Assembly: GCA_034401795.1 (NCBI GenBank)
Contig: CM067360.1
Span: forward strand, 122,436,430 to 122,500,429
Length of the DNA: 64,000 nt
Reading direction: 5' to 3'
Source of the DNA: Chaetoderma sp. LZ-2023a
Lineage: Eukaryota > Mollusca > Caudofoveata > Chaetodermatida > Chaetodermatidae
The notes under the pieces were generated by a model. The model searched no databases. It worked only from the letters and a program-made list of their open reading frames with translations, and was not told the origin of the DNA. Each line of letters starts with the position of its first letter. Within the stretch, counting starts at the first letter, position 1. Made by a program: the position numbers and the translations under genes. Shown here piece by piece: positions 9,629-40,030 of the stretch.

Positions 9629-9726
9629 AATATTAATGTAGAGGTTTATGTTTGTAAATAGTTTTCCTCCTCTGCTATTTACAAATATCACATTTGTTGG
9701 TAGGGTATCCCTACTATTAGCTGGTA

Positions 9727-9997
9727 CAGTTTTGCATCAGCCATGATGGAATAGGATGATTTTAAATAGAGAAATTCTCGATAAAGAGCGTGTGAAGATT
9801 TTCCACAAGTTGCTTTCAGCCAATATATTAGAAAACGGAAGTACCGGTGTGCGCATGCGCAGTGGGTGGTGTTTGTCATGTGCATGACTGTGTACTTCCA
9901 CCTGCCCATTAGGGGCACCTAACTTTTTATAATTCTGAATATTATTGAATTTAGAGCCGATATACTAGTATATCAAGAGTGTTAGGGAGGTAAGTAT
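9727..9997 (+). repeat. DIRS copy 1 right inverted terminal repeat
   Basis: Inverted copy of 3661-3931. The outer end reads GTTAGGGAGGTAAGTATG, which contains a consensus-like 5' splice site (AG|GTAAGTAT, GT at 9990). A right extension related to those of copies 2 and 3 (CTCGTGAAAAAGAAAT) follows to about 10030. Confidence 0.93.
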
Positions 9998-10610
9998 GTC
10001 ATCTCACTCGTGAAAAAGAAATTTGATAAATTTACTTAAACCTTCAGTTAGGCAGATTTCCAGACTTTCCATTAGTTACATTCCAATAATATATCTGGCT
10101 AACGCACTAAGTTACTGCTCGTCGTACGTGGAAAATGGTATTTAACGATCACACTTGAAAATCTTCTTAGTTATCCTTATGTCTGTCAAATTGTTGTTAG
10201 AGGCTAGGGTTAAAGTAATTGATAAATTACTACTTATAAGAACGTACTTCGCGCAAAAAATAGAATAAAAGTTATTTTAATTAACCTCATAGGACAGGGG
10301 GTGGTTAAAAATATCTAAAACCTATCTTTACTTGCACTAATATTTTATAATTTCGAGCCGTTTTTTTCTAGAAAATCATAATATCAAATGAATATTTTGC
10401 ATGATATTTTATATCAATTACTACAGCCTGGTTAGTTAGCAATTTCCCGGAATTTTACAACTTTGTAATGACCGGACAATGGCCCAAGTAAAGAGGAATG
10501 GACAATATGAGAAAAACGTCTCAGTTCCCGCTTCTTATTTTGGCGGGTAGCGTTAGATATCGATCGATACAAGCTACTGTAACGAGAAGCGGCTCAGCGA
10601 GCGTAGGCAT

Positions 10611-10698
10611 ATGTATTCTCAGCATATTATAGTCTATTTAGTATGTGTTATAATGGCTTGGTTGTACCGCTGCGTGGAGATTTGCACGATTCCTGGCG
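10611..10698 (+). CDS. Candidate signal-peptide exon 1 of TM2D3 (weak)
   Basis: An ATG opens a short frame with a strongly hydrophobic run (HIIVYLVCVIMAWLYRC), as a secretory signal would have. TM2D3 proteins begin with a signal peptide. The first sure exon needs one preceding nucleotide (phase 1), and a possible donor GGCG|GTTTCG after 10698 gives that phase and would form a Glu codon at the junction. Against it: the donor is weak, the sequence is not specifically similar to known TM2D3 starts, signal peptides occur by chance, and a hAT-like end lies about 600 bp downstream, so this stretch could belong to a transposon. The true first exon may lie outside the window. Confidence 0.22.
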
Positions 10699-11289
10699 GT
10701 TTCGTCACATTGCAATTTTGTCGTATGAGGCACACGTTTTCGTGGTCAGTTTATTTATTATTCTGGCACATACATCATACAAAAGTAGCCAGAAAAATGA
10801 GTAGAACATAGATTTACATTCAGCATATCCAACGTCTTTGACTCGTAGCAATGACATTTGTCAATCAAATATCAACCGTCTTGGTTGTTCGCAGTTTCAC
10901 TGGGCGAGTTTATTTGGGATGAGATTGTCACTAGTTACCGGTATCGCGTGATCTCGACACGGAGTAGTTGTAATTTTGTGGCAAATTCAAATCATTTGTA
11001 CAGGCGATTTGGTTGAATTACAGCTTTAACTGAAGACGGTTAATATTTAGCGTTTAATATCGGGATTCATATAATTTATTGGTTTTATTGTGGAAATTTG
11101 CGCCGACTGTTTCAGGAGCGCTGATATAGGCCTACTTCGTATGTATGGGAAATACATTGACTATGGAATCATACTACTGGAGCCTCACTCTATTTTGCCC
11201 ATCGTAATAATACAGGTATTAAAGGTGTACTGGTATGGAAATTGATACCATATAAACCGGTATTAATTTTTCCAATACCGTGAAGCCCT

Positions 11290-11410
11290 AGCTGAATAAT
11301 AATGATAACACGAACAACAACATTATTATTATTATTATTGTCGCATTGTTATTATCATTATGCTCAATAATTGCTATTATTTATATGTATTATTATTATT
11401 ATTATTATCA
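11290..11410. repeat. ATT/TTA-rich microsatellite
   Basis: Imperfect runs of ATT and TTA triplets with interruptions. Confidence 0.85.
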
Positions 11411-12051
11411 TATATTGTCCAGTAAGGTGTTTTCGAGGGTCATGTGATTTCGAGGGTACATGTTTTTGACGTTCTCACGTGTGGGTCACTTATGTCATGT
11501 CAACAAATCATATGTCTTTAAATAGATACAGTATTTTTACACAAGTGTAAAATTTAAAAAGATGTGCAGAGAACAAGTTATTATTTTATGCATTTTGATG
11601 GCAGTGTAGTGAAAAACCTCTTTTTTCACTAATACTTTTTTTACCCATGATAAAAATGCCGACAACTCGTAAGGAAATGATACAAATCAATCCAGTTTTT
11701 GCATCAAACGACATCTGCCAGTTACTGTCCTGAGTAGCATAGCAGATCCTTTGCCATAGCAATAATTTATTTATACCGAAGCGTGAAACTGGCATGGGTT
11801 GCTTATGTAGTTTCAGATCTAGAGTGATTTTTCTCTACCCGCAACGGTGATACAATGAAATGTTCTGTTGAATATTTTTAACATAATTGGATTGGAAGAC
11901 ATTGCTACCTAGTGGGTGTGGGAGGTATACTGGTTTAACACCGTTTCACACTTTTTTTATAGTGATGGTTTAAAAACCATTGCGAAAATAAAAAAAAACG
12001 AAAAAAACATCTGTAAGATTGTCATTGCGCGAAAACTGGTGACTGTCTGGG

Positions 12052-12411
12052 TTTGTGTCATATTACGTTTGGAATCATAATTAATAATCATAATTAACTA
12101 GTTTGTTCTTGACTTGAGAGTTTATTACCATCTAGTGAATAACCATTTGCTAATAGCGTCCATAAAATACAGGCATCTATAAGTATTAGCCATGGAAAAG
12201 CAAGGGTGTTGGTGAAATCCCGACAAATCGGCCGAGAACAACACTCGTCAAATATGATTTGCCAGCAACGAATTTTACATGACGTTAGTTCTGCGACATC
12301 AAGGTAAGAATAATCTGTAAATCTAAATTTCTTCTTTGTAGTAAATAATCCTTTTGCCAATTCGCTTTGTGCGATATGTGTTTAATTATGATTCCAAACG
12401 TGACATGATAA
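12052..12411. repeat. Imperfect inverted repeat, about 30-bp arms
   Basis: TTACGTTTGGAATCATAATT (about 12062) is matched in reverse by AATTATGATTCCAAACGTGA (about 12383), about 300 bp apart. This could be a small non-autonomous DNA transposon; I could not find a target duplication. Confidence 0.45.
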
Positions 12412-13289
12412 AAAAAGTCAAGAAACACGCTACAAAAACAACCATGCTTTGCAATGCAATCAATCCAAACATGTCATTATTTCCCTTAGATTTCAAAAAC
12501 CATAAAATGATCCAACACGGAATAAAACATAAGAAACAAATTCCTTGTCCCCCAAGGAATGAAAATGATTAAGTCCCACTTCTTATGTTGGCAAACATAA
12601 AGGTTTTACAGTTGTAAAATAAACGTCTTAGCCTCTCAAATATGAGCAGGCATAATGTGATTAGTTGTTAATGAATTCTTCCACCGGGAAAATCTCTACT
12701 ATTGATTTTATGAATGAAATTCCTGTCAATCGTAGTATTTTTTATCACGTGACTTTTAGTTGATAAAGTTAGAATCATATCGTCTTGTTTTATGGGTGCG
12801 TGTTCGTATATCTGCCAGACTACTGAGTGTTGATTTAAGTAGATTTAAGTTAGATTCCCTCGAATCATTGCGTTTACGTTGTCAATTTAAATCATATTCT
12901 CTTTATTATGGCATATGCTCTCGAAAAATATTTAGACAGATGGTTTTTCGTGAGAATTCTTGAGATGTGATCTCCGGGAAATGACTACTTTTTAGTGGCA
13001 TGCTGAATGACATTCACCCGTGTAGACACGAATGACACTTTATTGTATTACTGAATACCGAGTACTCGAATACAAACATGTGACTTACCAGATTAGATCA
13101 TAATGTAGGTGGTTACACAAGCTCTAGCCGTATCAGCGCTACTGTACTAGGGGTCTAGGCTCGCTCTCATATCCGGGTTCCTATTTTCATGCATTATATT
13201 TTACTATGCTTTCTAAAATAGTGACCTAATAAGAGTTTTGGAAATCAAGATTTGAGCAGTTAGGGTGTTAATTTCACGACATCATATGA

Positions 13290-13510
13290 TTAGAGGGATG
13301 GGGGCCAATGGATCTTTCCGGTTTTAGCTATGCCCCGCCCACAAATACATACAATTCATACAGCGTGTCGGACTGTTTGAGATTTGGTGACGGTCTATAT
13401 GGAACCCTTTCTGATGTAATGATTGTGACGTTATCATACATGCACGCACTGAGTTGATTATGATGTCATACGAGGTCAGATGATGGATGGATACTCTGGA
13501 AAGGTGAATT
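13290..13510 (+). repeat. HP2-family MITE, copy lacking the hairpin
   Basis: It begins with GGATCTTTCCGGTTTTAGCT and ATGCCCCGCCCAC and ends in GGATACTCTGGAAAGGTGAA, the two termini of the HP2 family. The central hairpin is missing. Confidence 0.65.
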
Positions 13511-13660
13511 CCATTTTATCAATTCCAATTCTGCTTCAATTCATTTTATCAATTCCAATTCTGTTTCAACATCAATTCATCTTATCAATTCCAATTCCAT
13601 CGAGACAAGTTCAATTCCAAGTCCAATTCCATTTCATCAATTCCATGTCCAATTCCATAC
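13506..13660. repeat. AATTCCAATTC minisatellite
   Basis: Irregular tandem copies of TCAATTCCAATTC, several joined by ATTTTATCAATTCC. The same motif recurs at 15560-15735. Confidence 0.85.
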
Positions 13661-13747
13661 AAATATTTACTGAGATCAATAATATTGTTCACCGAAGTTA
13701 TGATTTTACTTCATAAAGGGCTAGAAACAACATGGATAAGAAAATGT

Positions 13748-13915
13748 GTCCATTTGCAGGTTAAGAGAACCTTTTTTGAAAATTTACCATTGCAATGACT
13801 GGCTCACTCATCAAGCCAGTCATTCCAGTGGTAAATTTTCAAAAAATAGTCTTCCTAGCCTGCAGATGGACATTTATCAAGACCACTGCAGAGGACAGTT
13901 TTGGTCGCCTTGTCC
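13748..13915. repeat. HP1 foldback repeat
   Basis: The outer arm GTCCATTTGCAGGTTAAGAG faces its complement CCTGCAGATGGACAT. The inner arms TGGCTCACTCATCAAGCCAG form the loop region. The tail AAGACCACTGCAGAGG is characteristic of the family. Confidence 0.9.
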
Positions 13916-14465
13916 ATTGAAGTGATAAAACAATTAGAATAAAAGTTGTTAATCATTACTTTAGGCAGCTATATCTTTCAGTCAAATTATTTTTTAAAGA
14001 ATTAGAATAAAACTATTCATGCTGAATTTCAAATAGAAGAAATTTATAATTTGTGTAACAATCTAACTGAAAGCAGTTGGTGCCTTAGGCAACAATATTT
14101 TATGAATATTAAGTGGATTTTATTTAAATGTCACCTGGATCTAAAGTATAGCACAGTATAGACTGAATTCTGTAATTCAGCATGTATTTTTGAATAACAC
14201 CTATGGTTCAGGCATCTGTGTTTTAAAAGCTGAGATAGTTTTCATAGCGTGGTGTTTGACCCTCCCTTTGTGGGTATGATTACAGGGAATTTGTCTTGTA
14301 ACGTACTTCTATCTTGACTAAGCTTTCACGATTATTGCTTTCAGTAATCATGATCGATTATTTAATAATAATTGCGATTACTCGATTAATCAGCTTGAGT
14401 ACAAATTACCAAGTTATAACAGCAAAAAAGCATATCAATGACGAAAGCTGCAATGATGTTGAGAA

Positions 14466-14610
14466 TGGTCGATTTGCAGGCCAAGAGAAGATTATTTTTG
14501 AAAATGTATCACTGGAATGACTGAAAATGACTGATTCTCGAGCCAGTCATTTCAGTGATACATTTTCAAAAATAATCTTCTCTTGGCCTGCAAATGGGCA
14601 TGCAAAATGT
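14466..14610. repeat. HP1 foldback repeat
   Basis: Nearly perfect hairpin: GATTTGCAGGCCAAGAGAAG on one side and CTTCTCTTGGCCTGCAAATG on the other, with arms of about 60 bp that include GAAAATGTATCACTGGAATG. Confidence 0.92.
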
Positions 14611-15237
14611 AAATTTCTGTGACCCATCGCAATAAACAATAATTTAAAGGTAGGTTTTAAAATATTTTATGAATCAGAAAGGAAAAATTATTACACCTGA
14701 AATTGCTAACTAGAATTAAACAGAATTATGTTCACTGATTATTGCCTAACACTCTGCAACTAAGTATATACTTGGTATTTCACGACAGACTCAGTGTCTG
14801 CAGCGAAAGAAAATTATATGGAGATTCGACGGAGTAACAATCTGGTTTTCTCAATGACAAAGATGTTACCTCGCTATTGTTAGCCTGTTTATCATAGCGC
14901 TTTGTGTTGTGATTAGTAATTATTCAACATGTGCATGGCACGGCGGGTTATAAACACAATGAACACAGGCGTGAATTGGTTATATTGTACTCATGTACTG
15001 ATAAAATGCGACGGAAAAGTACACACTTCAGATTTTAAACATTTTTGTGATTTTTCCTCAGTTACATCGTAAAAATCGTGATGTTAAAAATAAAACTTCA
15101 CGATTAAATCGAAAAGTCGCACACGCCTAATGAGAGTTATAAAGATCACGTGACAGTATGATAAAAAGGTCAAGTGTCAGGGAAAATTGAGGTATTCAAC
15201 AGCATATTAAACATGAGGTTTATCAGATCTTTACTTT

Positions 15238-15400
15238 GGACATTCACAGACCAAGAGGTTATTTTTGAAAATTTACCACTGGAATGACTGGCTCAATTAT
15301 TGAGCTAATCATTCCAGTGCTAAATTAAAACCAAATAGTCTTCTCTTGGTCTGAAAACAAACATTTCTCAAGACCACTGCAGAAGTCGTTTTGGGGTGTT
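15238..15400. repeat. HP1 foldback repeat
   Basis: Arms with AAATTTACCACTGGAATGAC and its complement, followed by the family tail CAAGACCACTGCAGAAG. Confidence 0.88.
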
Positions 15401-15559
15401 AAATGTTAATGGTTAATCTGTCAGCAATGAATTATCTGTATAGATTGTGGATTGAAGGCCTATAAAGATCAATGTATTATACAGATCAAGTGAGATATTA
15501 CATGTACACTAACATAGCCAATAGTACACATGTAAGTCTATGACAAATACATGTATGAC

Positions 15560-15735
15560 TGGAATTGATGTGGAATTTATCAATTCCGGTCAATTCAAAC
15601 CAGAGCAATTCAATTCTAATTCAGGTGTCTTTAAATTTATCAATGCCAATTCCAATTCCGGAGTCATAAGATTTATCAATTCCGAATCCAGAATTGAATT
15701 GGAATTGATGCATTCCAATTCCAATCTGAATTGAC
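15560..15735. repeat. AATTCC-rich minisatellite, partner of 13506-13660
   Basis: Repeated TTTATCAATTCC and CCAATTCCAATTCC motifs, ending in the opposite orientation (GAATTGGAATTGATG). It marks the far side of the DNA inserted into the hAT-like element. Confidence 0.8.
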
Positions 15736-15979
15736 CTCAACCCTGCACATGAACCAGACCTCAGTTATTTTAACTACTATTTTGTGATGGGTAGCATCGA
15801 AGTCAACAGTCGTACGTAGTCGTGGCAATGAATTTACGTCAGATGTCAAATCTCAAAATACATGATATTTCAACTTATGTTTGATCATTCTAGTCCCTTA
15901 AACTAGTATTTCGGTTAAACCGGTTTAATTGGTCATACCGTCACCGGTTTTCTTTTAGGCCAAACCACCCAGCTCTATG

Positions 15980-16550
15980 TTCACGAAACTTGGATGGGAT
16001 ATTTATTGGCGTAGGTGTCCCGAAGAACTCCTAATTTGGGGACAAAATGTTAAGATTATTGAATAGGGCATGAAGACAAGAATCTTTGAATAATTGTTTT
16101 TACATCGGTATGAATTCAGTGTATGTATGTTAATGATTACATTGTATACTGGCCCATAAAATCAGCCAGTGAATGCCTCTTGAAAACACTAGGCACACTA
16201 AAAGTAGTGCAACTTGAACTTTTGAGACTAGCAAAAAAATCAGCATCTTACAGATTTAATTCGATCTGATGTTGGATGTAGCAAAGAATGCTTCTAACGA
16301 AGTATGTTACCACAGAATATAATTAAATATAATTTTTTTGTTACCCAGAGACGTATGATTAATGGACATACTGATGTACATTATTCAGGTAGGTGAGTGA
16401 AAAAGTGCATCTGTATTGGGAATAACATGAGCTGTAGGTGAAGGCGAGGCTGCATACAAATTATTTATAAATAATGTATGCCAAGTATTGCTGACTCAAA
16501 TGTTTTAAAATCACCAGTTATCTACCTATCATGCTTATGATTGATTTCAG
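15980..16550. other. Intronic sequence before the first sure TM2D3 exon
   Basis: No recognisable repeat or coding sequence. It ends in a short pyrimidine tract and TTGATTTCAG acceptor at 16541-16550. Confidence 0.5.
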
Positions 16551-16741
16551 AGAGCGGTTCTGATCAGCGTAATGGATCAGATGTGTCCGAGAATACGTCC
16601 GCAGCTGTAGCTGTGTGCCCCAGTGGAGTTACATGCGCACTGCTGGGCGGCGAATGCATCACATGTCTGTTCAATAAGTCTTGTATTTATGGCCACGTGA
16701 TTGAAGTCAACTGCTCAGTGAAACCAGACATTCATTGCCAG
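16551..16741 (+). CDS. TM2D3: TM2D3-type gene, first sure coding exon (extracellular Cys-rich part)
   Basis: Internal exon bounded by TTTCAG|AG and CAG|GTCAGA, entering in phase 1 and leaving in phase 0. It encodes about 63 residues: a Ser/Asn-rich spacer, then VCPSGVTC, GECITC, NKSCIYG and VNCSVKPDIHCQ. These follow the Cys spacing of human TM2D3 as I remember it (CPSNGLC, DCIDC, FSCTYG, CAVKPSVTC). TM2D3 is a small secretory-pathway membrane protein whose fly counterpart, almondex, is required for Notch signalling. This part should face the lumen or outside. The frame is open a little upstream of the acceptor, but the Cys-rich homology and splice site place the start here. An upstream exon with the signal peptide is required. 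Confidence 0.85.
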
Positions 16742-17084
16742 GTCAGATTATCCAGTTAGCCTGTGTGTGCGTATGTATATGCTAGATCACTCAAACAGCC
16801 ATTAACTTCCGAACCAAATTTGTCAAGAAGTATGTGTATGTATCATTATTCTCTGTATTGGGAAACAAAGTTGTGGTCATGTTTCTTTACTGTTCATGGA
16901 AATCCTGAAAAGTCATGAAATCTGAGAATCGGAGATTAATGCCTGGAACTCAGGACTGAAAAAGGATCATGTTTCCTCATAAGTAATGGAACAGCCATGG
17001 ATAGATAATCCTTTGGACGCTGCTGACGTTCAAGACAATCATGCATGTTGCACCTGGGGTAAAAAACAATCTGCAGTCATCTTG

Positions 17085-17200
17085 GTCATGCCCATTTGGA
17101 GACCAAGAGAAGACTGACTATCTTTGACAATTTATCATTGAAATTCCACTGATAAATTAAAAAAAAGACTGATTGGCCTGTAACTGGACATTCAAAGCAA
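17085..17200. repeat. HP1 foldback repeat, shortened
   Basis: The arms CCCATTTGGAGACCAAGAGA and GATTGGCCTGTAACTGGACA enclose a reduced centre (AATTTATCATTGAAATTCC). Confidence 0.75.
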
Positions 17201-17774
17201 GCATGTAAATTTGATTAGCCCATCTTGACCATTAAAGGGATAAATCTTGCTAGAGTTAGCAGAGGGAAGATAGGTCCAGTGTTGGTTTTTCCTCTCATGG
17301 CATCTCAATTTTGGAGGTTCCAGCGACCCCACACCTAGAAATCTTAGGTGTCCCAACCTGAAATCGTGGTGTACCAAACTGAAAGTTGACATTCCCATGC
17401 AGTTTTTCTCATCCATGCTAAAATTAGAAAGTGTCATGGGTGCACAGCTATGAATAAAGGGGGTACCATGCTAGATTTTGTGCAAAAACCGATAAAACTA
17501 ATATTTAACAATCGTGCAAGATTTTCTGGGGTCCCATGGCACCCACTACCACAAGTTTTGGGGTTCCCCAGCTACATTTTGGTGGTCTATACCCTTAAAA
17601 CGACCATTATGAGAAACCCTGGATAGGTGTACATATTGACAACAATGCTGAATGATAGCCCTCCATCTTTTTATCAACACCATTGTCAACAGAGGGATCC
17701 ATTTCTCGCTAAGCTCCTTCCAGTTTTGGGATTGATCAAACCCTGAAATCCCAGGACATCAATGTGATGATACA

Positions 17775-17935
17775 GGTAAGCTGTTGAATATTTTGAAACT
17801 AATTTAACTGGGTGCTGTTGCTACCGATGGCCTATTCTGCATATGGCAGCAACACACCAAGTAAAATTAGTTTCAAATATTCAACAGACTTTATTAAATA
17901 ATAAAGACATACAATTTGTACAGACTATTCAATTG
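17775..17935. repeat. HP2 foldback repeat
   Basis: It starts with ACAGGTAAGCTGTTGAATAT, has a hairpin with TGCTGTTGCTACC facing GGCAGCAACACACC, and ends in the family tail TTAAATAATAAAGACATACA. Confidence 0.9.
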
Positions 17936-17969
17936 TGTTCTTGACGGACCTAGATACATCATTCATTAA

Positions 17970-18205
17970 CCCTTTAACCCTCAAAATTGTTCAAGAAAAT
18001 TTCAATTTTCTTATAATATGTCCATTTGCGGACCTAGAGAAGACTAATTTTGAAAATTTACCACTGGAATGACTGGCTTGGTTTTCGAGCCAATCATTCC
18101 AGTGGTAAATTTTTGAAAAATAGTCTTCTCTTGGTCTGTAAATGGACATGTCTCAAGACCACTGCAGAAGCCGTTTTTGGCTGATATGAGTGTTAAAGGG
18201 TTAAG
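17970..18205. repeat. HP1 foldback repeat, most complete copy
   Basis: The central hairpin (GAAAATTTACCACTGGAATG and its complement) lies between TTAACCCTTTAACCCTC at about 17969 and GTGTTAAAGGGTTAAG at about 18190. These look like terminal inverted repeats, so HP1 is probably a MITE of about 235 bp ending in TTAACCCTTTAAC-like sequence. Confidence 0.9.
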
Positions 18206-18344
18206 CATTTTGATTATGACATCAAATATGTGACTGAAAAATTGGATCTATCCATACATATGCTTTTGAGAATACAAGAGGTTTTTTTTAGCCATTTAAT
18301 GATCAAATTTATTACTCAAAGTTAAAGAAATATTCATATGCCTA

Positions 18345-18475
18345 GCCAGAGAAGACTTTGACCACTTTAATGACCAGCTTGGTTATGGATCCAGTCTCAG
18401 GACAGTGGTAAATTCTACAAAACATCTTTTGGTCTGCAAATGGACATTTCTCGAGACCACTGCAGAATCTGTTTT
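18345..18475. repeat. HP1 foldback repeat, degenerate
   Basis: One arm with CCAGAGAAGACTTTGACCAC faces CATCTTTTGGTCTGCAAATG; the family tail CGAGACCACTGCAGAATC follows. Confidence 0.75.
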
Positions 18476-18884
18476 GCCCAGTTTTACCACTAAATTAAGA
18501 GTGTTGGATGTAAGATGCTGTTAGGATTGTATTTTAACCCTTTAAACTTGAGGAATGTCCATAATTTGCAGGCCTGAAAATGGGCACTCACTATATGTCA
18601 GAGTTCCCAGCACTACCAAACCAAACTTCCCTGATATTTCCCTGAGCAATTTCCAAAATTCCATGAGAAATATTTTCACTTTAATGAGGTTGCTGGAAAG
18701 TAAAGCGATGATTGCATCACAGCAACTAAGATACTGGTAAAATATACAACAGCGTGGTAGCCTATGCACACAATTATTTAAATTTATTTCCTTTCAGTCA
18801 ATGGACACAACTTGGACACATGACACAAGGTGCGCATTTGTCAAACTGGCAAAATGTGAAAACCTTCTCTTTCACTTCAAGAGT

Positions 18885-19035
18885 ATACTTACCTCCCTAA
18901 TATTCTTTGATATTGCTAAATATCGGCTTTCACTTAATAAAATACTCATTTAAAAAGAAAGGTGCCCCTTATGGGCAGGTAGTCAGAAGTCAGTCAGGCG
19001 GATGCCAGCCCCACCACCGTTGCTAATTTATTGGC
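18885..19035 (+). repeat. DIRS copy 2 left inverted terminal repeat
   Basis: Begins ATACTTACCTCCCTAATA and ends GCTAATTTATTGGC; pairs with 25513-25690. It is shorter than its partner. Confidence 0.9.
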
Positions 19036-19931
19036 AAAGGGTTCACACATGTTTCATGCTTAAAGCTTTTCTGGGCTGTTTAAGTCGTTTAATTAATATA
19101 TTAGAAGTGTTTTATCAACCTGGAGTGATAGCAGATCAGATTAAGTCGCCGGAGGAGCGCCCAGTACCTAGCCATCAGGTGACTTCTAGTATATTTTAGA
19201 GAGTTTATCCCGTTGTAATGTGTTTCCGGGACTCGCGTTTATCATGATAAGCGCCTAAAATAATTAGTTTATTTCAAAATGGCGCTATGAAATGCTAATC
19301 TCTCTTTGTGTTTATGTCCACAGGTATCTACCTTCGGTTGTTTAGGACATCACATTATCAGAGAGTTGGTTTTTCTCTCCACCAAGGTTCCATTTCCTAC
19401 TAACATTGTTAGGTTTTCTAACCAAAATTTATGCCCAGTGAGTTGGAGGCCTCGGATGAAGGTCTTCTCACTTTTCCCTCTTGGTCCACTTCCTTCCCCC
19501 TAAGGTGGAGAGAGTTAAGAGGTAATAATGTTGGTGGAGTGTCCGGTTCATCAGATCAGATGGTTTGTCTATGCTAAAGACTCAGGTACTCTAGTTATGA
19601 TATGAGGCTTTTCAATTATATTTGAAAATATTTATAAAATCTTACTGCCATTTATCACTGTTTATCTGATGTTTGTTCAGTCTGTATAAACTATCCTGTC
19701 TAGTTAGGATGTTCTTGATATGATTACAATTCGTCCTTCCACCTGGAGCTTTTGTTTCGGATCGATTTAACTTCTTATTCTTGAACTTATGACATCATAA
19801 TCAGCCTTACGCCTTACTGTCAGTTAAAAGTTTTGTCCAACGCTGATTTATTATTATTAGCTTGGGTCTTTATGGCCCCTTCCTCCTTGTTTATTTCGTG
19901 TTGAGTTTTAATTCAATATCTGTAATACTCA

Positions 19932-24809: not shown

Positions 24810-25342
24810 TCTAGGTGTACATATTTTAATGAGGTATCCTCATTTTTTATATATTTCACATTTAATCAATGGAAACATCTACTTTATGGGCTGCATCAGT
24901 CTTCACCAATGGGGAGATGATGACAGCACCAATCTTCCACAAGGTCAGTCCTGTGTGTGTTGTCCATGGTTTTTTGTAATGTCACGTGACCCTTCGTTAT
25001 TAATATGGTGATGGTACGTGTTTTATGTGGTTCATTATTGAGAGTATACGAAAATGTAGCCTTTTCATTTAATGTCCTATAGTACATGGCACTTGTACGT
25101 AGAGAGCGTATGGGACATTGAGGTCATTCAGTCTTCCTCCCAAGAGGAGGGTGGGGGAGCGCTTATGACTTTTGGTCATCCCTCAGCCATCGGTTTGTGT
25201 TAGCTGATGTTTTCCTATCTATTCCTGATTGTGTTTCCACACAATTTCAGAAGTTTAAGTGCCTTAATCGCAGAAAAGCGCATAGGGAAGAGCTGGTCTT
25301 TTGACCTCGCCTCCCTCCCGCCGAATTCACTGACGAATTCTG

Positions 25343-25446
25343 GCAATATCAAAGAGTATTAGGGAGGTAAGTATACTCTTGAAGTGAAATAAACGAAATC
25401 ACGGATTTCTTTTTTCACGAGAGAGTTGATACTTACCTCCCTAATA
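25343..25446 (+). repeat. DIRS copy 2 internal complementary region
   Basis: Contains the complement of the left end (AGTATACTCTTGAAGTGAAA) fused to the complement of a right extension (CACGAGAGAGTTGATACTTA). In DIRS-1 this region is thought to template closure of the ends into a circle. Confidence 0.85.
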
Positions 25447-25512
25447 CGGACCCAGCCTCTCCGCCCCACTGAGGCTTGGTCTTCAGGCTCTTATTATGTT
25501 GCATGTGTGTCA

Positions 25513-25690
25513 GCCAATAAATTAGTCAGAGGAAGTACTAGTCGGCGCATGCGCGGTGGTGGGGCTGGCATCCGCCTGACTGACCTCTGACTATCTGCCC
25601 ATAAGGGGCACCTTTCTTTTTAAATCTGAGTGTTTTATTAAGTGAAAGCCGATATTTAGCAATATCAAAGAGTATTAGGGAGGTAAGTAT
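25513..25690 (+). repeat. DIRS copy 2 right inverted terminal repeat
   Basis: From GCCAATAAATTAG to AGGGAGGTAAGTAT. The outer tip is a consensus-like 5' splice site with its GT at 25683. Confidence 0.92.
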
Positions 25691-25725
25691 GCAATCCTTT
25701 ATTGGTCTTCTTTATTTTCCTATAG

Positions 25726-25885: not shown

Positions 25886-26394
25886 GTATGTACTAGGGTT
25901 GCACAGTAACGTAATCTTTTAAAAATGATGACTGCGATGCACTTACATGTATCAGAAAATAAGTAAGAATGGGAATGATAATCCAGCATGTGCTTTATAA
26001 TTGTACCATAATTTCTTTAGGTAAGACAAATGAATGTCTCGCCTCCGAAGCAAAACTGAGACATAGGTATCACTTTTCCAGTTGTGGCAGTTTCAAGCCA
26101 TCAGCAGTAAGTTTTGAATTTGGTTAGTGGTACTAAACTTGGATGAATGGTGGGTTATGCTGTTAGGAATCCACACAATGACATTGATGTTAGAAGATCA
26201 AAGATCATGGTCACTGTTTGGTACCAACTATGTTTTGTCAAGGTTATGGTTTTACACGTACATGGTGGGCTATGATGTTAGAAGTCTGTATTATGATGTT
26301 GAGGTCACAAGGTCCAAAGTCAAGGTCAGTCTGACCTTGATGCAAAAACTGCTTTGTCAGATTGTTTTAGAACCTTTAAGCTTCTGCACCTTTT

Positions 26395-29080: not shown

Positions 29081-29149
29081 ATATTAATATGTGCAAATCT
29101 CATTTCAGAAAAATAATGCCACCCTGAGTAATAGATGGTCAATCCAATC

Positions 29150-29545
29150 TATCGCTCAATCATATAATGTCATAATCAACCAGGTCACATGTAGGCTGAC
29201 ATCCTAATCAATTACATCATGAATGGTGTGATTAAGTCCATCATACACGATTAATCCTCTGTCAAGTTAAAGAAATTCTATGTCTACTATTTAATAAACA
29301 TTCTGTTGAATATTTTGAAAGCAATTTAACTGGGCGCTTATGGCAGCAACAGTGCTCAATCAAATTAGTTTCAAAATATTCAACAGCTTACTTGTGTACC
29401 TGTTTAGTTTTCTGGAAATTCAGATTCAGGGATTGCAGGGATCGATCGATCCCAACATGGGAAAATCAATGGTGGAGTTTAGCTAGAGATGGGCGGGGCA
29501 TAGCTAAAACTGGATTCTTCCATTATCACTCCTAAGACGGAGACC
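29150..29545 (-). repeat. HP2-family MITE
   Basis: Reverse-strand copy. Its hairpin is at 29302-29392 (CTGTTGAATATTTTGAAAGC and its complement), followed by GATCGATCGATCCCAACA and GGCGGGGCATAGCTAAAAC. Confidence 0.85.
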
Positions 29546-29902
29546 ACGTTCATGTTTTATCTTTCATCAAAAGATGTATATTTGCAGGAGTTATTACCAT
29601 TAAACATTTTACATATATTAAAAATAAACTTCATTAATTTGGATGTTTCTGAGCAATAGACTATTGAACAGTCCTAATAACAATCATGGTGAAGTTGAAT
29701 ATTTTCTGAATATATTCACTTTCACCTGTATAAGTAGGTCATTCTTTCACAATAAAATAATAATTAATTTATCCAATGCTGTGCAAATAATACATATAGG
29801 TGGAATCGCTAACTCTTTTACATGTATATAATAAACTAGATAGTAGACTATTAGAACTTTGTCAGTTATTTGTACATAATCTAAGAATTACATGTACCTG
29901 AT

Positions 29903-30340
29903 TTAGGGCTGGGCAGTTTGGCCTAAAAGAAAACTGGTGACGGTATCACTAATTAAACCAGTTTAACAGAAATACCGGTTTACAGGACTAGAATAATCTA
30001 AAATAATTTGAAATATGGAAATATCTTGTTTTTATTAGCTACAGTGCATGTATTTTGCAATTTGACAACTGACATGAATTGCCATGAAATTAGAATGGTA
30101 ATTACATACGACTGTTCACTTCGATGCTTTCTATCTCAAAATAGTAGTTAAAATAAATAAAGTCTGGTTCATGTGATGTCCTGAAATTAACACCCTAACT
30201 ACTAAAATGTTGATTTTCAACACTGTTATTAGGGCACTATTTTTGAAAGCATCTTGATTACTGATATTGAGTCATTCATATATGTCTGATCACTGATAAA
30301 ATTGGAAATTGTGGACCTATTCTCAAATAAATTTCTCAGC
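29903..30340 (+). mobile_element. hAT-like element, left end and partial body
   Basis: It begins TAGGGCTGGGCAGTTTGGCC, followed by CCGGTTT-rich subterminal sequence, and matches the reverse-oriented element at 13170-15978 over about 400 bp. I could not place a right end before the exon at 30450. Confidence 0.65.
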
Positions 30341-30389
30341 ATATCATATTAATGGTCAAATTTGCTCAAGAAAATCTAAATCTCTGCTA

Positions 30390-30440
30390 CTATTATGAAA
30401 ATTTACGACTGGAATGATTGGCTCAGTAATCAAGCATGTT
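30390..30440. repeat. Half of an HP1 hairpin adjoining a TM2D3 exon
   Basis: GAAAATTTACGACTGGAATG and ATTGGCTCAGTAATCAAG match one arm of HP1; the second arm is absent. Exon sequence starts about 10 bp after it. Confidence 0.7.
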
Positions 30441-30449
30441 ATCTTTCAG

Positions 30450-30525
30450 GGAATCGTGAATTCAATAAAAACCTGCCATGCAACTGGACTGGAGGCTACA
30501 AGTGGTCAACTGCTCTTATGCTCAG
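30450..30525 (+). CDS. TM2D3: TM2D3-type gene, third sure exon (start of TM2 domain)
   Basis: Bounded by ATCTTTCAG|GG and CTCAG|GTCAGT; it enters in phase 1 and leaves in phase 2. It encodes NREFNKNLPCNWTGGYKW followed by STALMLS. Human TM2D3 has NRTFPKMLYCNWTGGYKW and STALALS at the same place, so this is a near-exact family match. It carries the conserved CNWTGGYKW block, which includes a potential N-glycosylation site, and the first residues of membrane segment 1. Confidence 0.94.
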
Positions 30526-31143
30526 GTCAGTATTATTAACTCCACTGGCCTGAAATCCCAATTGAGAATATGCCATGGCAACCATCGTCCATCAACTGTT
30601 TCTTTAAAAGACTCCTCATTAACTGCCTCGCCAATTTCAAACAAAATTTGCCTATAGCCATCTTGGATTTTCAAAAAATCTCCAGAAGTCAGTTAAAAGA
30701 CTGAAATCCTCATTAACTATTGGTCTAATTTCAACCAAACCTAGCTGAAATGACCCTGCAGTCATAGGCTTCTGCAGCTGTATTCATGAAAGGTAAGTAT
30801 GGAAAAATGTGCAAATAGTGCATAAAGTCCAAAATATTAATCCACCTACAGGAAATGTATATTTAGTCCTGTCTTCATGGCTACAATGTAGTCAGATCTT
30901 CTAAAAATCTGCTGGCACTTAGGCGGGCTTGTAATTTAGGCACTCTTCATGAATACAGCCCTTGAAGTTGTAATCTGATTACTCAATTTGTCAGTGCCCC
31001 TCTTGAATTTTGTGGAAAGTTAACTTTCGCTTTAAAAGACTACAGACTCTCATTAACGGCCTGGCCGATTTCAACCAAACCTGGCACAATTAACCCTATG
31101 GTAATAGACCGCCAAACATATATACCGGAATGTGAGATGATCT
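30526..31143. other. Intron sequence before DIRS copy 3
   Basis: Non-coding. Repeated phrases such as GACTCCTCATTAACTG and GATTTCAACCAAACCTGG point to an old dispersed or tandem repeat. It continues after the DIRS element at about 37985-38200, so copy 3 inserted into it. Confidence 0.6.
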
Positions 31144-31158
31144 TTTCACATCAAGAGT

Positions 31159-31335
31159 ATACTTACCTCCCTAATACTTTTGATATTGCTAAATATCGGC
31201 TTTCACTCAATAAACACTCAGATTAAAACAGTTAGGTGCCCCTACTGGGCAGGGAGTCAGAGTGTAGTCTGGCGGATGCCAGCCCCACCACCGCGCATGC
31301 GCAGACTAGCACTTCCTCTTTGCTAATTTATTGGC
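31159..31335 (+). repeat. DIRS copy 3 left inverted terminal repeat
   Basis: ATACTTACCTCCCTAATACT to GCTAATTTATTGGC, complementary to 37763-37939 with equal length. Confidence 0.95.
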
Positions 31336-32239
31336 AGAGAGTCTACACATGTTTTTGTGCTAGAGCTTTTCTTTACTCAATTCATAGTCTTTTTGTGTGA
31401 ATTTGGAAGTGATTATCCCTGATATAGATGGCAGAAAGGATGACTTCGCCAGAGGAGGGCCCAGGACCTTTAAATCAGGTGACTTCTAGTAAAATTAGCG
31501 AGTTTTTTCCCCGGTGTAATGTGTTTCCGGGACTCGTTTACCGTGATAAGCGCCTTGTTTAGTTGGTTTATTTCAACTAGGTGCTATATAATACTAATCT
31601 CTCTTTGTGTTTATGTCCACAGGTCTGTGTGACGATATGTAATGGACATCACATCAGCAGAGGGTTTGTTTCTCTCCACCATGGTTCCATTTCCTACTAA
31701 TACTGTTAGGTTATCTAACCAAAAATTTTATGTCCAGTGAGTCGGAGGCCTAGTATAAAGGTCTTCTCACTTTGCCCTCTTGATCCAATTCCTTCCCCTA
31801 GAGGTGGAGAGAGTTAAGAGGCGTTCAGTTGGTGGAGTGCTCCAGTTCATCACGTTGGATGGTTTGTCTATACAAAGTGTCAGGTATCTAATTATTGATA
31901 TGAGGTGATGTTAATTATTTAGAGAGGAAAGGGAGATAATTAACAGTATTTGCCATTGTTATCAGTATATATCTGATGGTTGTGTAGTCGAAATGTCCAT
32001 TCTGCACATGTTCTGGTTAGAGATACAATTCGTCCTTGCACTTGGATGTTTGTTGGGGATCGATTTTTTCCTGTCATAGGATTAATGACGTCATAATCAG
32101 CCTTGCTCTTTATTAACAATTAAAGTTTGTCCAAAGCTGGTTTTCTGATGAATATTGATCTTTATGATCATTTCCTTCTCTTGAGTTGGTTGAGTTTCTG
32201 AGCTTAACTAGATTGCTCATACTCCTCATCCTTTGCCCT

Positions 32240-34298
32240 GTTTCAGAGACCTGGTTGTGCGTCCTGTGGACGATTTTTGAAGGACAAGTTTGTGCCTCAT
32301 CTCTGTTATCAATGTAGCCCCTGTGGTCCCTTGCTTAATTGCGAGATATGTAAGCACTGGGGGGCGAGCTAATGTCCGAATTCTTGTGCTTGCAGGCGAA
32401 GGACAAGGTGGTGGAGGAGGAGAAGAAGAAGCAGAAAAGAGAGGGTGTGAGTAAGAAGGGTAAGAGGAAGGCCTCGTCCGCGGTGGACATGGAGGCCTTC
32501 CGGACCGAGATGTTGGGAGAGATGAGGAGGACAATAAAGGATTTGGTTCCAGAGTTGCTTCGTGGCATGCTTCCTGGACCAAATCCTTTGGGTGTCCTCA
32601 TCATCTGCTTCGGAGCAGGTAATCCCCACCTCTGAATCACCTTTCCTTAGTACGCTTCCGTTGTTCGAAGATTCAGAGGTGGCCCCATTAGAGGGGGCGT
32701 TCCACGACCCTGGCAGCAGGCTTAGTGCCGCGCCGAGGGGCCGTGGATGGTTGTCGCTGGAACCCGCGGGCTGCTTATCAGTCCAGGGGTATCCACACGC
32801 CGCGGGTGCCAGTACCTCCTATGGCACCTTCCCTGGCCAGTCCGGGTTAGCTCTCTTTGCTGACCCGGAGTCTAATCTGTGTGGCCAGGAGGATGAGGAT
32901 TACCTGTTGGGGTCGCCGTCTGAGGACGTGGCCATGGATTATGACGTCTGTGCACCCCTCGCGGGGAATACAGGCGACTTATTCCACGGTTCTACTCACG
33001 CAGGGGTAGAATCCACGGTTCAGACTGTGGCCCTGGGCGCTGAGGGCCAGCGTTACCACATACCTCGGCTTGCCGAGAGTGTCGCTGGTGCTGGCCGGGG
33101 CCGTGGTGGGGCGGTATGTGCCCCGCGCTCTACCACGGTGCCTGCTCCTGGTCAAGCCAGTGAGATTAGCATGCCGGTGTTGTCAGGCCCGCATGCTCTC
33201 CCTGGCTTGCCAGGGGTATCAGCGTATCCGCCGTCAAGCTCTGTTGCTTGCGCTCAGGAGGAAGACGAAGGCCCCCGTCTTGTAGAGCGCTCGCAGCTAG
33301 CCACGGAGGAGGATTGGTCTGACGCTTGCCAGTGGTTGGTGAGTGTTAGGCCAGATCTGCCCGTGGAGCAGTCGGCTAGCCAGCGTGACCACAGGCCGTG
33401 GTTAGCTGGTAAGCCTACTGCTAACGCTATGCCTTCTCTGCCGCTGGCAGAGCATGTCGTTGACATGTTCGAGGCGGCGGAGACGTCCATTAAGTCAAGT
33501 GGACGTCTCGCGAAGGCCCCGCGCAAGGTGGCCAGGCGTTGCCGCATCGTGCCCCTGGATTACCAGCGGTACGGTGTGGTACCTAAGCCGAGCGTGGATG
33601 ACCGCGCGGCTTTGGGTGAGGATGCGCGGCCAGGCTCCCGTTCTGACACGGGAGTCTTGTGTTCGAACGCGTTGCGTTCAGCAAATACCGCGTTGCGTGA
33701 TGCGGAGGAGAGTGGGAGGGCTTCGATTGCCGCTCTGTCCCACGTCTCCCAGCTGTTACAAGGGGTAGTAACAGCATCCGCATCGCGCCAGCCAAGTCCG
33801 GTCACAGTCCAGCGAGCCATCCAGGATGGTATCAACCTGGCGCTGGACTGTATGACTCGGGCGGTGACCAGGAGTGTCCGGGCAAGGCGCACATTTGCCT
33901 TGGACAATCTGTGCCTGTCCCAGGACCTGTACAATAGGCTACTGCGTACGCCTATGACAGGTCCTGGTCTCTTTGGAGGTGAGGGATGTCGACACCTCCA
34001 GGAGACGGTTACTCTGGTAAATAACCAGAGGGCGCTGCGCGAGCAGTTTGAGGTGCTTCGTCGTGCTAACGTTCGCGCCACACCCCCTGCGTATCGTCCC
34101 CTGCAGGCTCGAGGTGGTGGTGGCCAGGTCAGAGGCCAACCACCATCGCAGCGTCGGCCTCGGCCGCGTGCAATTCGGCCAGCAGCGAGGGGGGCGCAGG
34201 CTCCTCAGGCGCAGTCAGCCAGGCAGCCGCCCGCGCACCTCGGTGCGCGCGGTGCTGGTCGTGGCGCGCGAGGATCTGGGCGTGGTAATCGTTCCTGA
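32240..34298 (+). CDS. DIRS copy 3 gag-like region (fossil part)
   Basis: An upstream Cys cluster (CASCGRFL, CYQCSPCGP, CEICKHWG) leads to a Lys/Glu-rich segment and MDMEAFRTEMLGEMRRTIKD. A Pro/Gly-rich middle, the shared GPGLFGGEGCRHLQETVTLV block and an Arg/Gly-rich end (GARGAGRGARGSGRGNR) follow. The RGG-like end suggests RNA binding. Composition is more GC-rich than the flanking intron. Confidence 0.72.
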
Positions 34299-34309
34299 TG
34301 GGATGGTTA

Positions 34310-36130
34310 CCGCGGTGAGAACCGCTCCGGTGTTTCTGGCAAAGGAGACAGTGCCGCTCTTGCACTCCTTATGTCCACCTCTATCCCTAGGTGGACCGGT
34401 GGGAGGCCGGCTAGCCGACCACATGCAAGAGTGGGAACGGTTAACTCAGGACCGTTTAGTCTTGCGATGGCTTTCAGTCGGGTATCATCCCGATTGGATG
34501 ACAGGCCCGCCATCGCGACTGTCTCTAGTGCCGATCTGGACTCCAAATCCGAGAGATCCAGAGCAAAGGTTGTGTATCGAGGAGGAAATAAATTCCCTCA
34601 TACAAAAAGGAGCTATTCAGCCGGCACAAAGGTGTCCGGGCTTCTATTCAACCCTGTTCTTAGTAACAAAAAACACCGTAGGGTGGAGACCAATTCTCAA
34701 TCTCAAGCCATTGAACAAGTTCATAGAGACGCCCAGTTTCAAGATGGAGACTGCGCTCGGTGTTTGCGGGGTTAGAGAGGGGAATGTGGACAGCGTCGAT
34801 AGATTTGAAGGACGCTTATTTCCACATCCCCATACACAGGAGTTTCCGTCGCTTCCTGAGATTTGCATTCCAGGGCAGACAGTGGGAACACAGACTTGGG
34901 CTGGATGATCAATTTCCCAAAATCAGAGCTGACTCCATCCCAGAAGTTTGTTTACCTGGGGATGTTCTTCGATCTAGAGACAGGATATGTTTTTCCTACT
35001 CAGGAGAGAGTTCAGAAACTCATCTCATTGATTCAGTCAGTGTGCGACAGTCGTCATGTCCTGGCACGGGTTTACTTGAGAATGCTGGGGTTGATGGTTT
35101 CATTGGAACCAGTCATTCCTCAGGCCGCCTTACGCAGGCGGCCGATCCAGTTATTTCTCATGACACAGTGGACCCAGAGTACAGGTTCGCTGGACTCGAA
35201 CGTGTTAGTGTTGGCGCCTCTGATTCATCACCTGCAATGGTGGTTGGACACAGAGAATCTCTTGGTGGGGGTTATGCTAACCCCTCCCCACCCTCAGGTG
35301 ACTGTGTATACAGATGCATCGATGGAGGGCTGGGGAGCTTGCCTGGAAGAATCCACGATATCAGGGCTTTGGAATCTGGAACAGTCAAAGGAACATATAA
35401 ATCTACTGGAGCTAAGAGCAGTAGTCCTGGGCCTGGAACATTTCTTACAGAAAGTTCAGGGCACGATTGTTCTTATTCGTTCAGACAACTCAACAGTTGT
35501 GACTTACATAAACCGCCAGGGCGGAACGAAGTCGCCCAGTCTCTGTATGATGACATGGAGACTGCTTTGGTGGTGCCTGGATCACCAGATTACCTTGAAA
35601 GCAGTTCATATTCCGGGAAGGTTAAATCTGCTAGCAGACTCATTGAGCCGAAGGATGAGTGTTTTACCCACGGAATGGCAACTAAATCAATGTGTGGCGG
35701 ATCGTCTGTTCGACCATTGGGGGAAACCCAACATCGATTTGTTCGCAACGAAGAAGAATGCGAAGATGACGACGTACGTCTCTCCGATTCCAGATCCAAG
35801 CGCTTTCGCAACAGATGCGTTAGCTATCAGCTGGGGGAGAATGTATGCATACGCATTCCCTCCAGCAATCCTGATTCCAAAAATTCTTCAGAAAATCAGA
35901 CAGGAGGAATGCCAAGTGCTTCTGATCGCCCCGGATTGGCCAAGCCGATCATGGTATACGGATCTGCTGGACCTTCTGGTCTGCAATCCGGTTCCTCTGC
36001 CTCTGATGGACGACATTATCTTCCATGGCAAGGCCCTTCACAACAATCCGTCAATGTTCAGATTGACTGCGTGGATGTTGTCAAGGAATCTAGAATTAAG
36101 GAGGGCTTTTCTGAGCAAGCAGTCATGTTT
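34310..36130 (+). CDS. DIRS copy 3 reverse transcriptase/RNase H region (fossil part)
   Basis: Shared RT blocks include WRPILNLKPLNKF and DLKDAYFHIPI. A clear RNase H domain follows, with VYTDASMEGWGACLEES, INLLELRAVVLGLEHFL and LIRSDNSTVVTYINRQGG, then HIPGRLNLLADSLSRR. The region ends with the DIRS methyltransferase-like segment (NIDLFATKKNAKMTT, YAFPPAILIPKILQKI, APDWPSRSWYTDLLDLL). It is a remnant and I do not regard it as functional. Confidence 0.85.
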
Positions 36131-37084
36131 ATGGCCAAAGCCAGGAGGGGGTCAACCTCCAGAGCATATAATTATAAAATCAACAGATTTGCAGAATGGT
36201 GCTCAAAAAGATGTATTGATCCAATGGATTCATCTATTCAGGTAGTAGCTGATTTCCTCTGTCACCTGTATGATGCCTATAGCCTCAAGCCTAACTCTAT
36301 TGCTGGTTATAAGTCAGCTTTAATGTCTGTTATTCCTTGCTTGGCTAAGAGGGGAAGTGATGAAGTAAATACATTAAATGTATTAATTAAAGGCATGGGC
36401 AATCTAAGACCAAGGAATCCCCCTGTGATTCCGTCTTGGAGTTTATCGCTAGTGCTTCAAGTACTAGGTGATAAGCCTTTTGAACCACTTAGTTCCATTT
36501 CTATGAAACTATTAACACTGAAGACTGTGTTTTTAATTGCTGCGGCCTCGGCTAGGCGTAGAAGTGAAATTCATGCCTTATCAGCCGAGGATGACCGTTT
36601 TGTGGTTTCAGGGGAAGGCCTTAAGCAGCTACCTAGGATTAATTTCTTGGCTAAGAATCAGTCATTGAAATATCCAGGTCAACCTATTGTTTTGCCTGCT
36701 TTAACTAGATATGATCCTAATTCTAAAGCATGGTGTCCCGTCCGGGCGCTTCTCCGGTACAAACAATGTACATCGGAGTGGCGCACCGACCAGTCGGCGT
36801 TATGGTTGTCATATATTGAACCCCATGGCAGGGCTTCTAAGGACACCATTTCCAGGTGGATTGTAGAATGCATTCAGTTTTGTCATAAATCCGCCACCGG
36901 GAAGCAGGTTGACGTGGCCAAGGCTCACAGTCTCCGCGGCGTAGTGACATCCACCGCCCTATTTAATGGGGTCCCTGTGGATGATATTATGTCGGTGGCT
37001 CAGTGGCACTGTGAGTCAAGTTTTACAGACCATTATCTCCGTGACACCTCTAATCCTCTCGCCTTGTCGATTTTGAAAAAATAA
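36060..37084 (+). CDS. DIRS copy 3 tyrosine recombinase region (fossil part)
   Basis: Core-binding-like part with SRAYNYKINRFAEWCSKRC and a catalytic part with ASARRRSEIHALSAE, AHSLRG and QWHCESSFTDHYLRD. All blocks of the tyrosine-recombinase signature are visible. It overlaps the end of the RT/RNase H region in another frame, as is normal for the order. Confidence 0.94.
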
Positions 37085-37592
37085 CTAGGTTTATATTTTT
37101 GATGAGGTTTCCTCATTGCTTATATATTTCACAATTAATTTATGGAAACAACCACTTTTTTGGGACTGCATCATTCTTCACCAATGGGAAGATGATGTCA
37201 GCAGCCATTTCAACAAGGTCAGTCTTGTGCATGGGTTGTTGATTGTCTTGTCACGTTACCCGTTATTAATATGATGATGGTTTTGTGTATTTATGTGGTT
37301 CATTGTTGAGATGGAGCTTTTTCGTCTCTGTCCTGTAGTACATGGCACTTGTACGTAGAGAGCGTATAGGACATTGAGGTCATTCGACTCTTCCTCCCAG
37401 GAAGGAGGGGGGGAGCGCATATGACATTCGGTCATCTCTCATACATCGGTGGTGTTATCCGATGGTTAGTCAAATCCTGACTGTTTTTTCATACAGTTTC
37501 AGAAGTTTAAGTGCCTTAAACGCAGAAAAGCGTATAGGGATGAGCTGGTCTTTTGACCTCGCCTCCCTCCCGCCGAATTCACTGTCGAATTC

Positions 37593-37689
37593 TGGCAATA
37601 TCAAAAGTATTAGGGAGGTAAGTATACTCTTGATGTGAAATAAACGAAATCAAGGATTTCTTTTTTCACGAGAGAGTTGATACTTACCT
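37593..37689 (+). repeat. DIRS copy 3 internal complementary region
   Basis: TACTCTTGATGTGAAATAA is the complement of the left extension, and CACGAGAGAGTTGATACTTA the complement of the right extension. They are joined in the order expected of a circle junction. Confidence 0.92.
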
Positions 37690-37762
37690 TCCTAGATACG
37701 GACCCGGCCTCTCCACCCCACAGAGGCTCGGTCTTCAGGCTCTTAATAGTTGCATGTGTATC

Positions 37763-37939
37763 AGCCAATAAATTAGTCAGAGGAAGTGCTAGTCTGCGCA
37801 TGCGCGGTGGTGGGGCTGGCATCCGCCAGACTACACTCTGACTCCCTGCCCAGTAGGGGCACCTAACTGTTTTAATCTGAGTGTTTATTGAGTGAAAGCC
37901 GATATTTAGCAATATCAAAAGTATTAGGGAGGTAAGTAT
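37763..37939 (+). repeat. DIRS copy 3 right inverted terminal repeat
   Basis: Inverted copy of 31159-31335. It ends TTAGGGAGGTAAGTAT, containing a consensus-like 5' splice site with its GT at 37932. Confidence 0.95.
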
Positions 37940-37977
37940 CAACTCTCTCGTGAAAAAAGAAATCCTTGATTTCGTTT

Positions 37978-39935: not shown

Positions 39936-40030
39936 AGGGCCACTTGATACCTGCCACCGCAAACACCTACACCGATGGACACCGATGCCCATACAGCATA
40001 ATTTCCAATGATGCTCAAAACAAGATGTGT
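39935..40030 (+). mobile_element. Small LINE fragment
   Basis: CCACCGCAAACACCTACACC and ATAATTTCCAATGATGC match the LINE remnant at 54435-54530 (CCACCACAAACACCTCTAC, ATAATTTCCAACGATGC). Truncated by the inverted arm of the next element. Confidence 0.6.

Follow-up and report, generated by a model that had tools for sequence, protein, structure and literature searches.

A U1-complementary word at the repeat boundaries of DIRS1-like elements in a Chaetoderma genome

Introduction

DIRS1-like elements carry inverted terminal repeats (ITRs) and an internal complementary region (ICR), and the divergent and the conserved part of the ITR meet at a stretch of at least 10 nt that is conserved in both ITRs and both ICRs and is perhaps involved in circle formation, according to the passages on element structure in Piednoel et al. 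(2011; PMC3266345). For DIRS-1 of Dictyostelium, sections of another account report that both ITRs are strong promoters, that the right ITR drives antisense RNA, and that the right ITR has a 27-bp extension (PMC4482531). Here we describe this boundary sequence, referred to as the word, in three DIRS copies (copies 1, 2, and 3) within a stretch of 64,000 nt from the mollusc Chaetoderma sp. LZ-2023a (assembly GCA_034401795.1, contig CM067360.1, positions 122,436,430 to 122,500,429), the whole of which is referred to below as the window. The elements resemble those described in PMC3266345 in having divergent and conserved ITR parts, a two-part ICR near the 3′ end, a right extension, and a shared boundary of at least 10 nt; unlike the present work, the structural passages of that article deal neither with splice donors or U1 nor with a comparison of the boundary between families ("intron" and "spliceosomal" have 0 occurrences in the main text). 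DIRS-1 of Dictyostelium is similar in its inverted repeats, whereas the sections of its description referred to above contain no U1-like boundary word, a distinction drawn from the description and not from the sequence (PMC4482531).

The fourfold occurrence of a boundary word within one element is therefore already known; the less expected part is that four families share the word as a complement of U1 small nuclear RNA (snRNA). Among titles and the beginnings of abstracts in the literature, we found no description of U1 or of splice donors at DIRS ends, and a search for the 9-mer core of the word together with DIRS likewise gave no match. To our knowledge, it is poorly understood how RNA ends are formed, copying is primed, and the circle is closed in DIRS elements. 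We propose, with a probability of roughly 0.4, that the boundary word is kept as a U1 target acting on the 3′ end of the sense RNA.

The word in the window

An earlier note, made from the letters of the window, had claimed a consensus-like 5′ splice site at the right terminus of all three copies, the same words in the ICRs of copies 2 and 3, and minus-strand counterparts at the left ends. The 13-base word GGGAGGTAAGTAT is present at every one of these places, as follows.

3661..3673, minus strand: left word of copy 1, GGGAGGTAAGTAT (word match)
9985..9997, plus strand: right word of copy 1, GT at 9990 (word match)
18885..18897, minus strand: left word of copy 2 (word match)
25362..25441: ICR of copy 2, with the left-half word at 25362 (plus) and the right-half word at 25429 (minus); hairpin z −8.2
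25678..25690, plus strand: right word of copy 2, GT at 25683; the right extension is missing past 25690 (word match and end comparison)
31159..31171, minus strand: left word of copy 3 (word match)
37613..37692: ICR of copy 3, with the left-half word at 37613 (plus) and the right-half word at 37680 (minus, one mismatch outside the 9-mer); hairpin z −7.4
37927..37939, plus strand: right word of copy 3, GT at 37932 (word match)

Nine exact copies of GGGAGGTAAGTAT and a tenth with one mismatch make up three left ends, three right ends, and the four ICR halves of copies 2 and 3; the minus-strand word at 25429 is exact, and the mismatch at 37680 falls outside the 9-mer GGTAAGTAT. With up to two mismatches to the 13-base word, the window has 13 matches, against a mean of 1.19 and a maximum of 4 in 100 shuffles. 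The fourfold presence of the word per element is an expected hallmark, because the DIRS1-like boundary sequence occurs in both ITRs and both ICRs, and the four words within one element were rejected as independent evidence, being templated from one another.

Pairing with U1 and conservation between families

Searches covered the 2.44-Gb genome that contains the window. The host U1 snRNA gave 36 matches, 30 of them above the cut-off, and the U1 genes start with ATACTTACCTGG in 10 of 10 loci read, so that GGTAAGTAT is the exact complement of nt 1–9 of host U1 snRNA and the excellent U1 match asserted in the earlier note is confirmed. The pairing energy of the word with U1 is −13.3 kcal/mol in families A and B and −11.1 kcal/mol in families C and D; 0.075% of 4,000 random 16-mers from the window reach −12 kcal/mol.

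The near constancy of the word between distant families suggests that it likely has a function. The earlier note had argued in the same direction from conservation across two subfamilies, which proves to be an undercount, since at least four families (A, B, C, and D) carry the word. Family C was first seen in a fetched locus, and family D through the junction pattern GGTAAGTAT-gap-ATACTTACC, which has 16,889 matches in the genome against 3 for the reversed pattern; furthermore, GGGAGGTAAGTATG occurs in 2,942 + 3,056 copies (9 + 10 for the reversed pattern), and a family-B ITR anchor allowing up to 3 mismatches has 20,953 matches (control 0). Among the 50 junctions listed, assigned by reading rows, 28 belong to family B (3 of them to a B variant), 17 to family C, and 5 to family D. 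Compared with that of copy 1, the recombinase of copy 3 is 81% identical, those of two family-C copies are 55% and 65% identical, and that of family D is 47% identical (351 aligned positions).

When 10 hand-picked right ends (2 of family A, 3 of B, 2 of C, and 3 of D, with copy 2 and the family-D copy L074 left out) are aligned, the word is the sole long invariant run, covering 8 columns in the gapped and 9 in the ungapped listing, and the next longest run is 3. The inner flanks vary (AGGGA; CATCT; ATAAT or GTAAT; in L074, GTAGT and GTAAC), and the outer flanks vary too. A search for relatives in viral contigs, a set that may omit records close to this genome, gave 2 pattern matches, none confirmed.

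Coordinated variants, that is, the same single transition in both ICR halves, were counted for three of the nine possible positions (+3, +5, and +6). The +3 change from A to G (GGTGAGTAT, with GTGAGT) has 8,174 matches (control 1), the 50 junctions listed all being of family D; it is likewise a consensus donor and the only common variant of the three. For the +5 change there are 19 matches (control 23), of which 3 are DIRS, and for the +6 change there are 3 (control 1), of which 2 are DIRS; neither change gave rise to a large group. The pattern at +3 and +5 fits the donor code. Splice donors usually tolerate change at +6, so that the variant data do not decide the matter.

Element ends, outer arms, and recombinase

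The earlier note had placed the word at the tip of the element, exactly at the exit. Instead, right ends extend 38–40 nt and left ends 15–17 nt beyond it, and the word as the element tip is ruled out by outer arms that match the ICR and by family-B ends that stop further out. In copy 3, the 38 nt after the right word (to 37977) form the reverse complement of the right half of the element's own ICR, and the 15 bases beyond the left word match the left half. The right end of copy 1 runs about 40 nt past the word, to ~10037, and resembles other family-A ends. An anchor within the ITR that does not include the word yielded 32 rows of family-B ends, with two duplicates and therefore 30 distinct ends: 14 right ends go 38 bases beyond the word, to ..CGTTT, and 16 left ends go 15 bases beyond it, to ..GTGAAA, after which both diverge. 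Copy 2 is alone in breaking off at the word; it lacks the right extension, since similarity is lost immediately after GTAAGTAT, and this missing extension may be the source of the earlier placement at the tip. The outer parts and ITR arms in the window are as follows.

3644..3660, minus strand: left outer arm (divergent ITR) of copy 1, outside the word; left tip near 3644, deduced from related family-A left ends
3660..3932: left ITR arm of copy 1, 273 nt, ungapped, 99% complementary to 9726–9998
9726..9998: right ITR arm of copy 1; no ICR and no purine run of at least 9 before the arm
9998..10037, plus strand: right outer arm and right extension of copy 1; tip near 10037 (compared with family-A ends)
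18870..18884, minus strand: left outer arm of copy 2
31144..31158, minus strand: left outer arm of copy 3; tip near 31144
37940..37977, plus strand: right outer arm and right extension of copy 3; tip near 37977

The ITRs have a divergent outer part, as in DIRS1-like elements, and copies 2 and 3 each have an ICR matching both ends; in family A, none was found in copy 1, and one is present in a further copy, L002. The right extension is complementary to the ICR in copy 3 (its own) and in copy 1 (that of L002), and is missing in copy 2. Copy 1 (9628–9998) has neither ICR nor purine tract, and at 273 nt its ungapped ITR arms exceed the 161 nt of copy 3; its right end looks as though the left end had served as its template.

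The outer arms read GTGAAA in families A and B, GTAGAA in family C, and GGAGAA in family D at both ends, some decayed copies excepted (by eye). Recombinase half-sites, or the ICR hairpin, would be expected to change in step at both ends in this way. The distance from word to arm is 8–12 nt (by eye), and that from word to tip is 15–17 nt on the left against 38–40 nt on the right. In all five ICRs folded (5/5), a hairpin forms with the word at the stem base (z −6.0 to −10.5). The word was rejected as the site that gives the recombinase its specificity, because the arms change between families and the word does not; an accessory contact of the recombinase with the word may occur.

The open reading frames (ORFs) at 7922–9625 and 34760–37081 match Phage_int_SAM_1 below the cut-off (E 0.0013 and 0.0036), and nothing in Pfam was found at E 0.01 for the catalytic part of the putative recombinase. 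Its C-terminal 300 residues are alike across families A, B, and C. The remaining ORFs searched gave no Pfam match at all, and so none to reverse transcriptase, RNase H, or methyltransferase.

Splice sites within the elements and the host gene

The elements appear to have donors of their own, behind short first coding exons, and a host exon lies downstream of copy 3. The first exons and the introns that would follow them were read from sequence only.

3914..3961, plus strand: short first coding exon of copy 1, donor AAG/GTGACA
31428..31478, plus strand: short first coding exon of copy 3, donor CAG/GTGACTT
39023..39188, plus strand: host TM2-domain exon to the stop codon, acceptor TTTGCAG with its AG ending at 39022

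A comparable first exon with a donor is found in copy 2 (19128–19178), with ATA in place of the ATG of copies 1 and 3. The donors are GTGACA in copy 1, GTGACT in copies 2 and 3, and GTTGTA in family C (by eye); a similar first-exon start is present in family C (by eye), and none was seen in family D. The three first-exon donors of the window pair with U1 at −6.6 to −8.2 kcal/mol, more weakly than the word. Acceptor-like tracts ahead of gag in copies 1 and 2 give likely introns of 1,083 and 780 nt. After another acceptor-like tract, a conserved reading frame FQKFKC..RRKA.R.ELVF followed by a stop occurs at 37498–37556, at 25243–25304, and in L072, and is possibly the last recombinase exon in family B.

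The TM2-domain last exon (Pfam E=5.9e-14) lies on the plus strand, so that copy 3 is in sense with the host gene, as the earlier note had it; upstream exons of this gene were not located. From the copy 3 donor to the TM2 acceptor the distance is 1,091 nt, no further acceptor-like tract between them passed the filter, and copy 3 is the only copy for which a usable downstream acceptor in sense was found. A copy 3–TM2 fusion transcript is possible. A large palindrome at 40018–41115, which contains a GIY-YIG ORF (40574–40915, Pfam E=1.6e-6), is perhaps a Penelope-like element.

A candidate role for the word, and the alternatives

In the explanation that we favour, the ITR/ICR boundary repeat of DIRS1-like elements has the word as its core, inside both tips, and the copies of the word exist because the ends and the ICR template each other, as in the established model. 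In this genome the word would in addition be constrained to a consensus 5′ splice site with full pairing to U1 nt 1–9, or to the GTGAGT form. The host U1 small nuclear ribonucleoprotein (snRNP) would most likely read the sense RNA at its two 3′ words, one in the left half of the ICR and one at the right end, and bound U1 would govern the formation of the RNA 3′ end, either through onward splicing or by blocking cleavage within the element. The RNA would thereby run through the right repeat and the extension required for copying; fusion to host exons would be a by-product, and the outer arms, changing in step between families, are probably the better candidates for recombinase sites. Ordinary splicing alone does not explain the strictness of the word, because the first-exon donors of the same elements differ and pair more weakly with U1. 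That U1 pairing is an obligatory part of the cycle of DIRS elements in this host, with the snRNP as a retrotransposition cofactor in 3′ end choice, chromatin retention, or the bridging of ends and ICR, seems to us unlikely at present. A nearly invariant U1 target at the end/ICR boundary would tie the elements concretely to a host factor. More than 16,000 junctions with a strong donor-like site, at a fixed place in one element class, are spread in the genome.

Several observations weigh against a U1 target as the reason for keeping the word. The exonic side varies, with T at −2 in families C and D; the elements' own first-exon donors are not constant; no change is tolerated at position +6, which is stricter than a donor needs; and the 9-mer is not fixed, given the 8,174 GGTGAGTAT junctions. 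A scan for the canonical poly(A) forms AATAAA and ATTAAA alone, from the end of the recombinase to the right word, found neither in 4 of 7 copies (one of family A, one of C, and two of D), which weakens the cleavage-blocking form of the proposal; copies 2 and 3 have such a signal (AATAAA) in this stretch, and copy 1 has one at its stop. Furthermore, of 47 family-B ends collected with an anchor that excludes the word, 46 have the exact 9-mer, a count that carries little weight alone because young family-B ends are alike over their full length, and families C and D, both noticed via the word, are not an unbiased sample of those that share it.

The alternative that survives best takes the word as a DNA-level site for circle formation or recombination, through ITR–ICR annealing or through contact with a protein, either the tyrosine recombinase or a DNA-binding protein of the host; the resemblance to a donor would then be a coincidence fixed by ancestry. 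It would account for the same word in both ITRs and ICRs, for which the literature suggests a role in circle formation (in the structural passages of PMC3266345), for the hairpins with the word at the stem base, and for a +6 position kept more strictly than a donor should need. Pure annealing, however, would let the whole segment of ~18–22 nt present in four copies drift alike, and only the 9-mer is common between families (by eye); the common variant GGTGAGTAT, moreover, is again a donor. A reader other than the recombinase is favoured because the word ignores the changes in the likely recombinase arms, the arm spacing varies, and the distance to the tip differs between the two ends. We hold this alternative to be a serious one, with confidence somewhat short of even.

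The earlier note had suggested that the donor could let element RNA splice to downstream host exons or around a circle. Its premises are partly sound, in that a consensus donor stands in sense at the right ends, that of copy 3 precedes a real host acceptor, and the elements themselves hold likely introns. As the purpose for which the word is kept, such splicing is not supported and appears improbable: the word ends 38–40 nt inside the tip, the minus-strand words at the left ends and in the ICR would be left without explanation by host-exon splicing, and no benefit to the element is evident. The absence of any special function, with recent common descent and homogenisation of the four copies keeping the word alike, draws on the near identity of the whole family-B end region among the copies listed but is very improbable, since the word is unchanged between families (themselves noticed via the word) whose recombinases are 47–65% identical and whose neighbouring bases have diverged.

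Further features of the elements

A purine run upstream of the ICR accompanies the word in all four families. In each of the 14 copies with an ICR that were examined (copy 3, copy 2, L002, L008, L039, L059, L060, L062, L065, L070, L072, and L074–L076), the longest purine run lies 184–234 nt upstream of the word in the ICR, and it measures at least 16 nt in 11 of them (for example, AAAAGAGGGGGGGGGGAG), the family-D copies being the most varied; in 500 background draws of 550 nt, the median longest run is 8 nt and 2.6% reach at least 16. Those in the window are as follows.

25142..25151, plus strand: purine run of copy 2, AAGAGGAGGG, 220 nt before the ICR word
37399..37415, plus strand: polypurine tract of copy 3, AGGAAGGAGGGGGGGAG, 214 nt before the ICR word

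The run resembles the polypurine plus-strand primer of long terminal repeat (LTR) elements, and as a primer it would put the ICR and the right end in the first plus-strand DNA. In one paper found for DIRS together with a polypurine tract, the tract belongs to an LTR element.

Just 3′ of the right ICR half stands a G+C-rich palindrome (for example, GCCTCTCCACCCCACAGAGGC), at 25455–25475 and 37707–37727 in the window and also in L002, L039, and L070; it is present in families A to D, where its sequence varies and its palindromy is kept (by eye). At G000:C1:13718790-13725717 (L030, L031), a family-B element has probably been inserted into a family-C element, because family-C coding sequence flanks it on both sides. 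The reverse transcriptase fragment adjoining a family-B insertion at L035 is incomplete, and it gave no family identified by protein alone.

Comparison with known systems

Strong U1 sites near 3′ ends block polyadenylation in several systems, including papillomavirus late RNA, the major donor of HIV-1, and U1 interference. The DIRS elements resemble these in the strong U1 complement within the 3′ part of the RNA and differ in that 4 of the 7 copies scanned here have no canonical poly(A) signal. Transposon ends are also known as splice donors, for example in maize Ac/Ds, where a donor and an acceptor contribute to splicing the element out of host mRNA. The likeness to Ac/Ds lies in donor-like sites at the termini of a transposon; by contrast, Ac/Ds are DNA transposons, and the DIRS donor faces outward near the exit and is also situated within the ICR.

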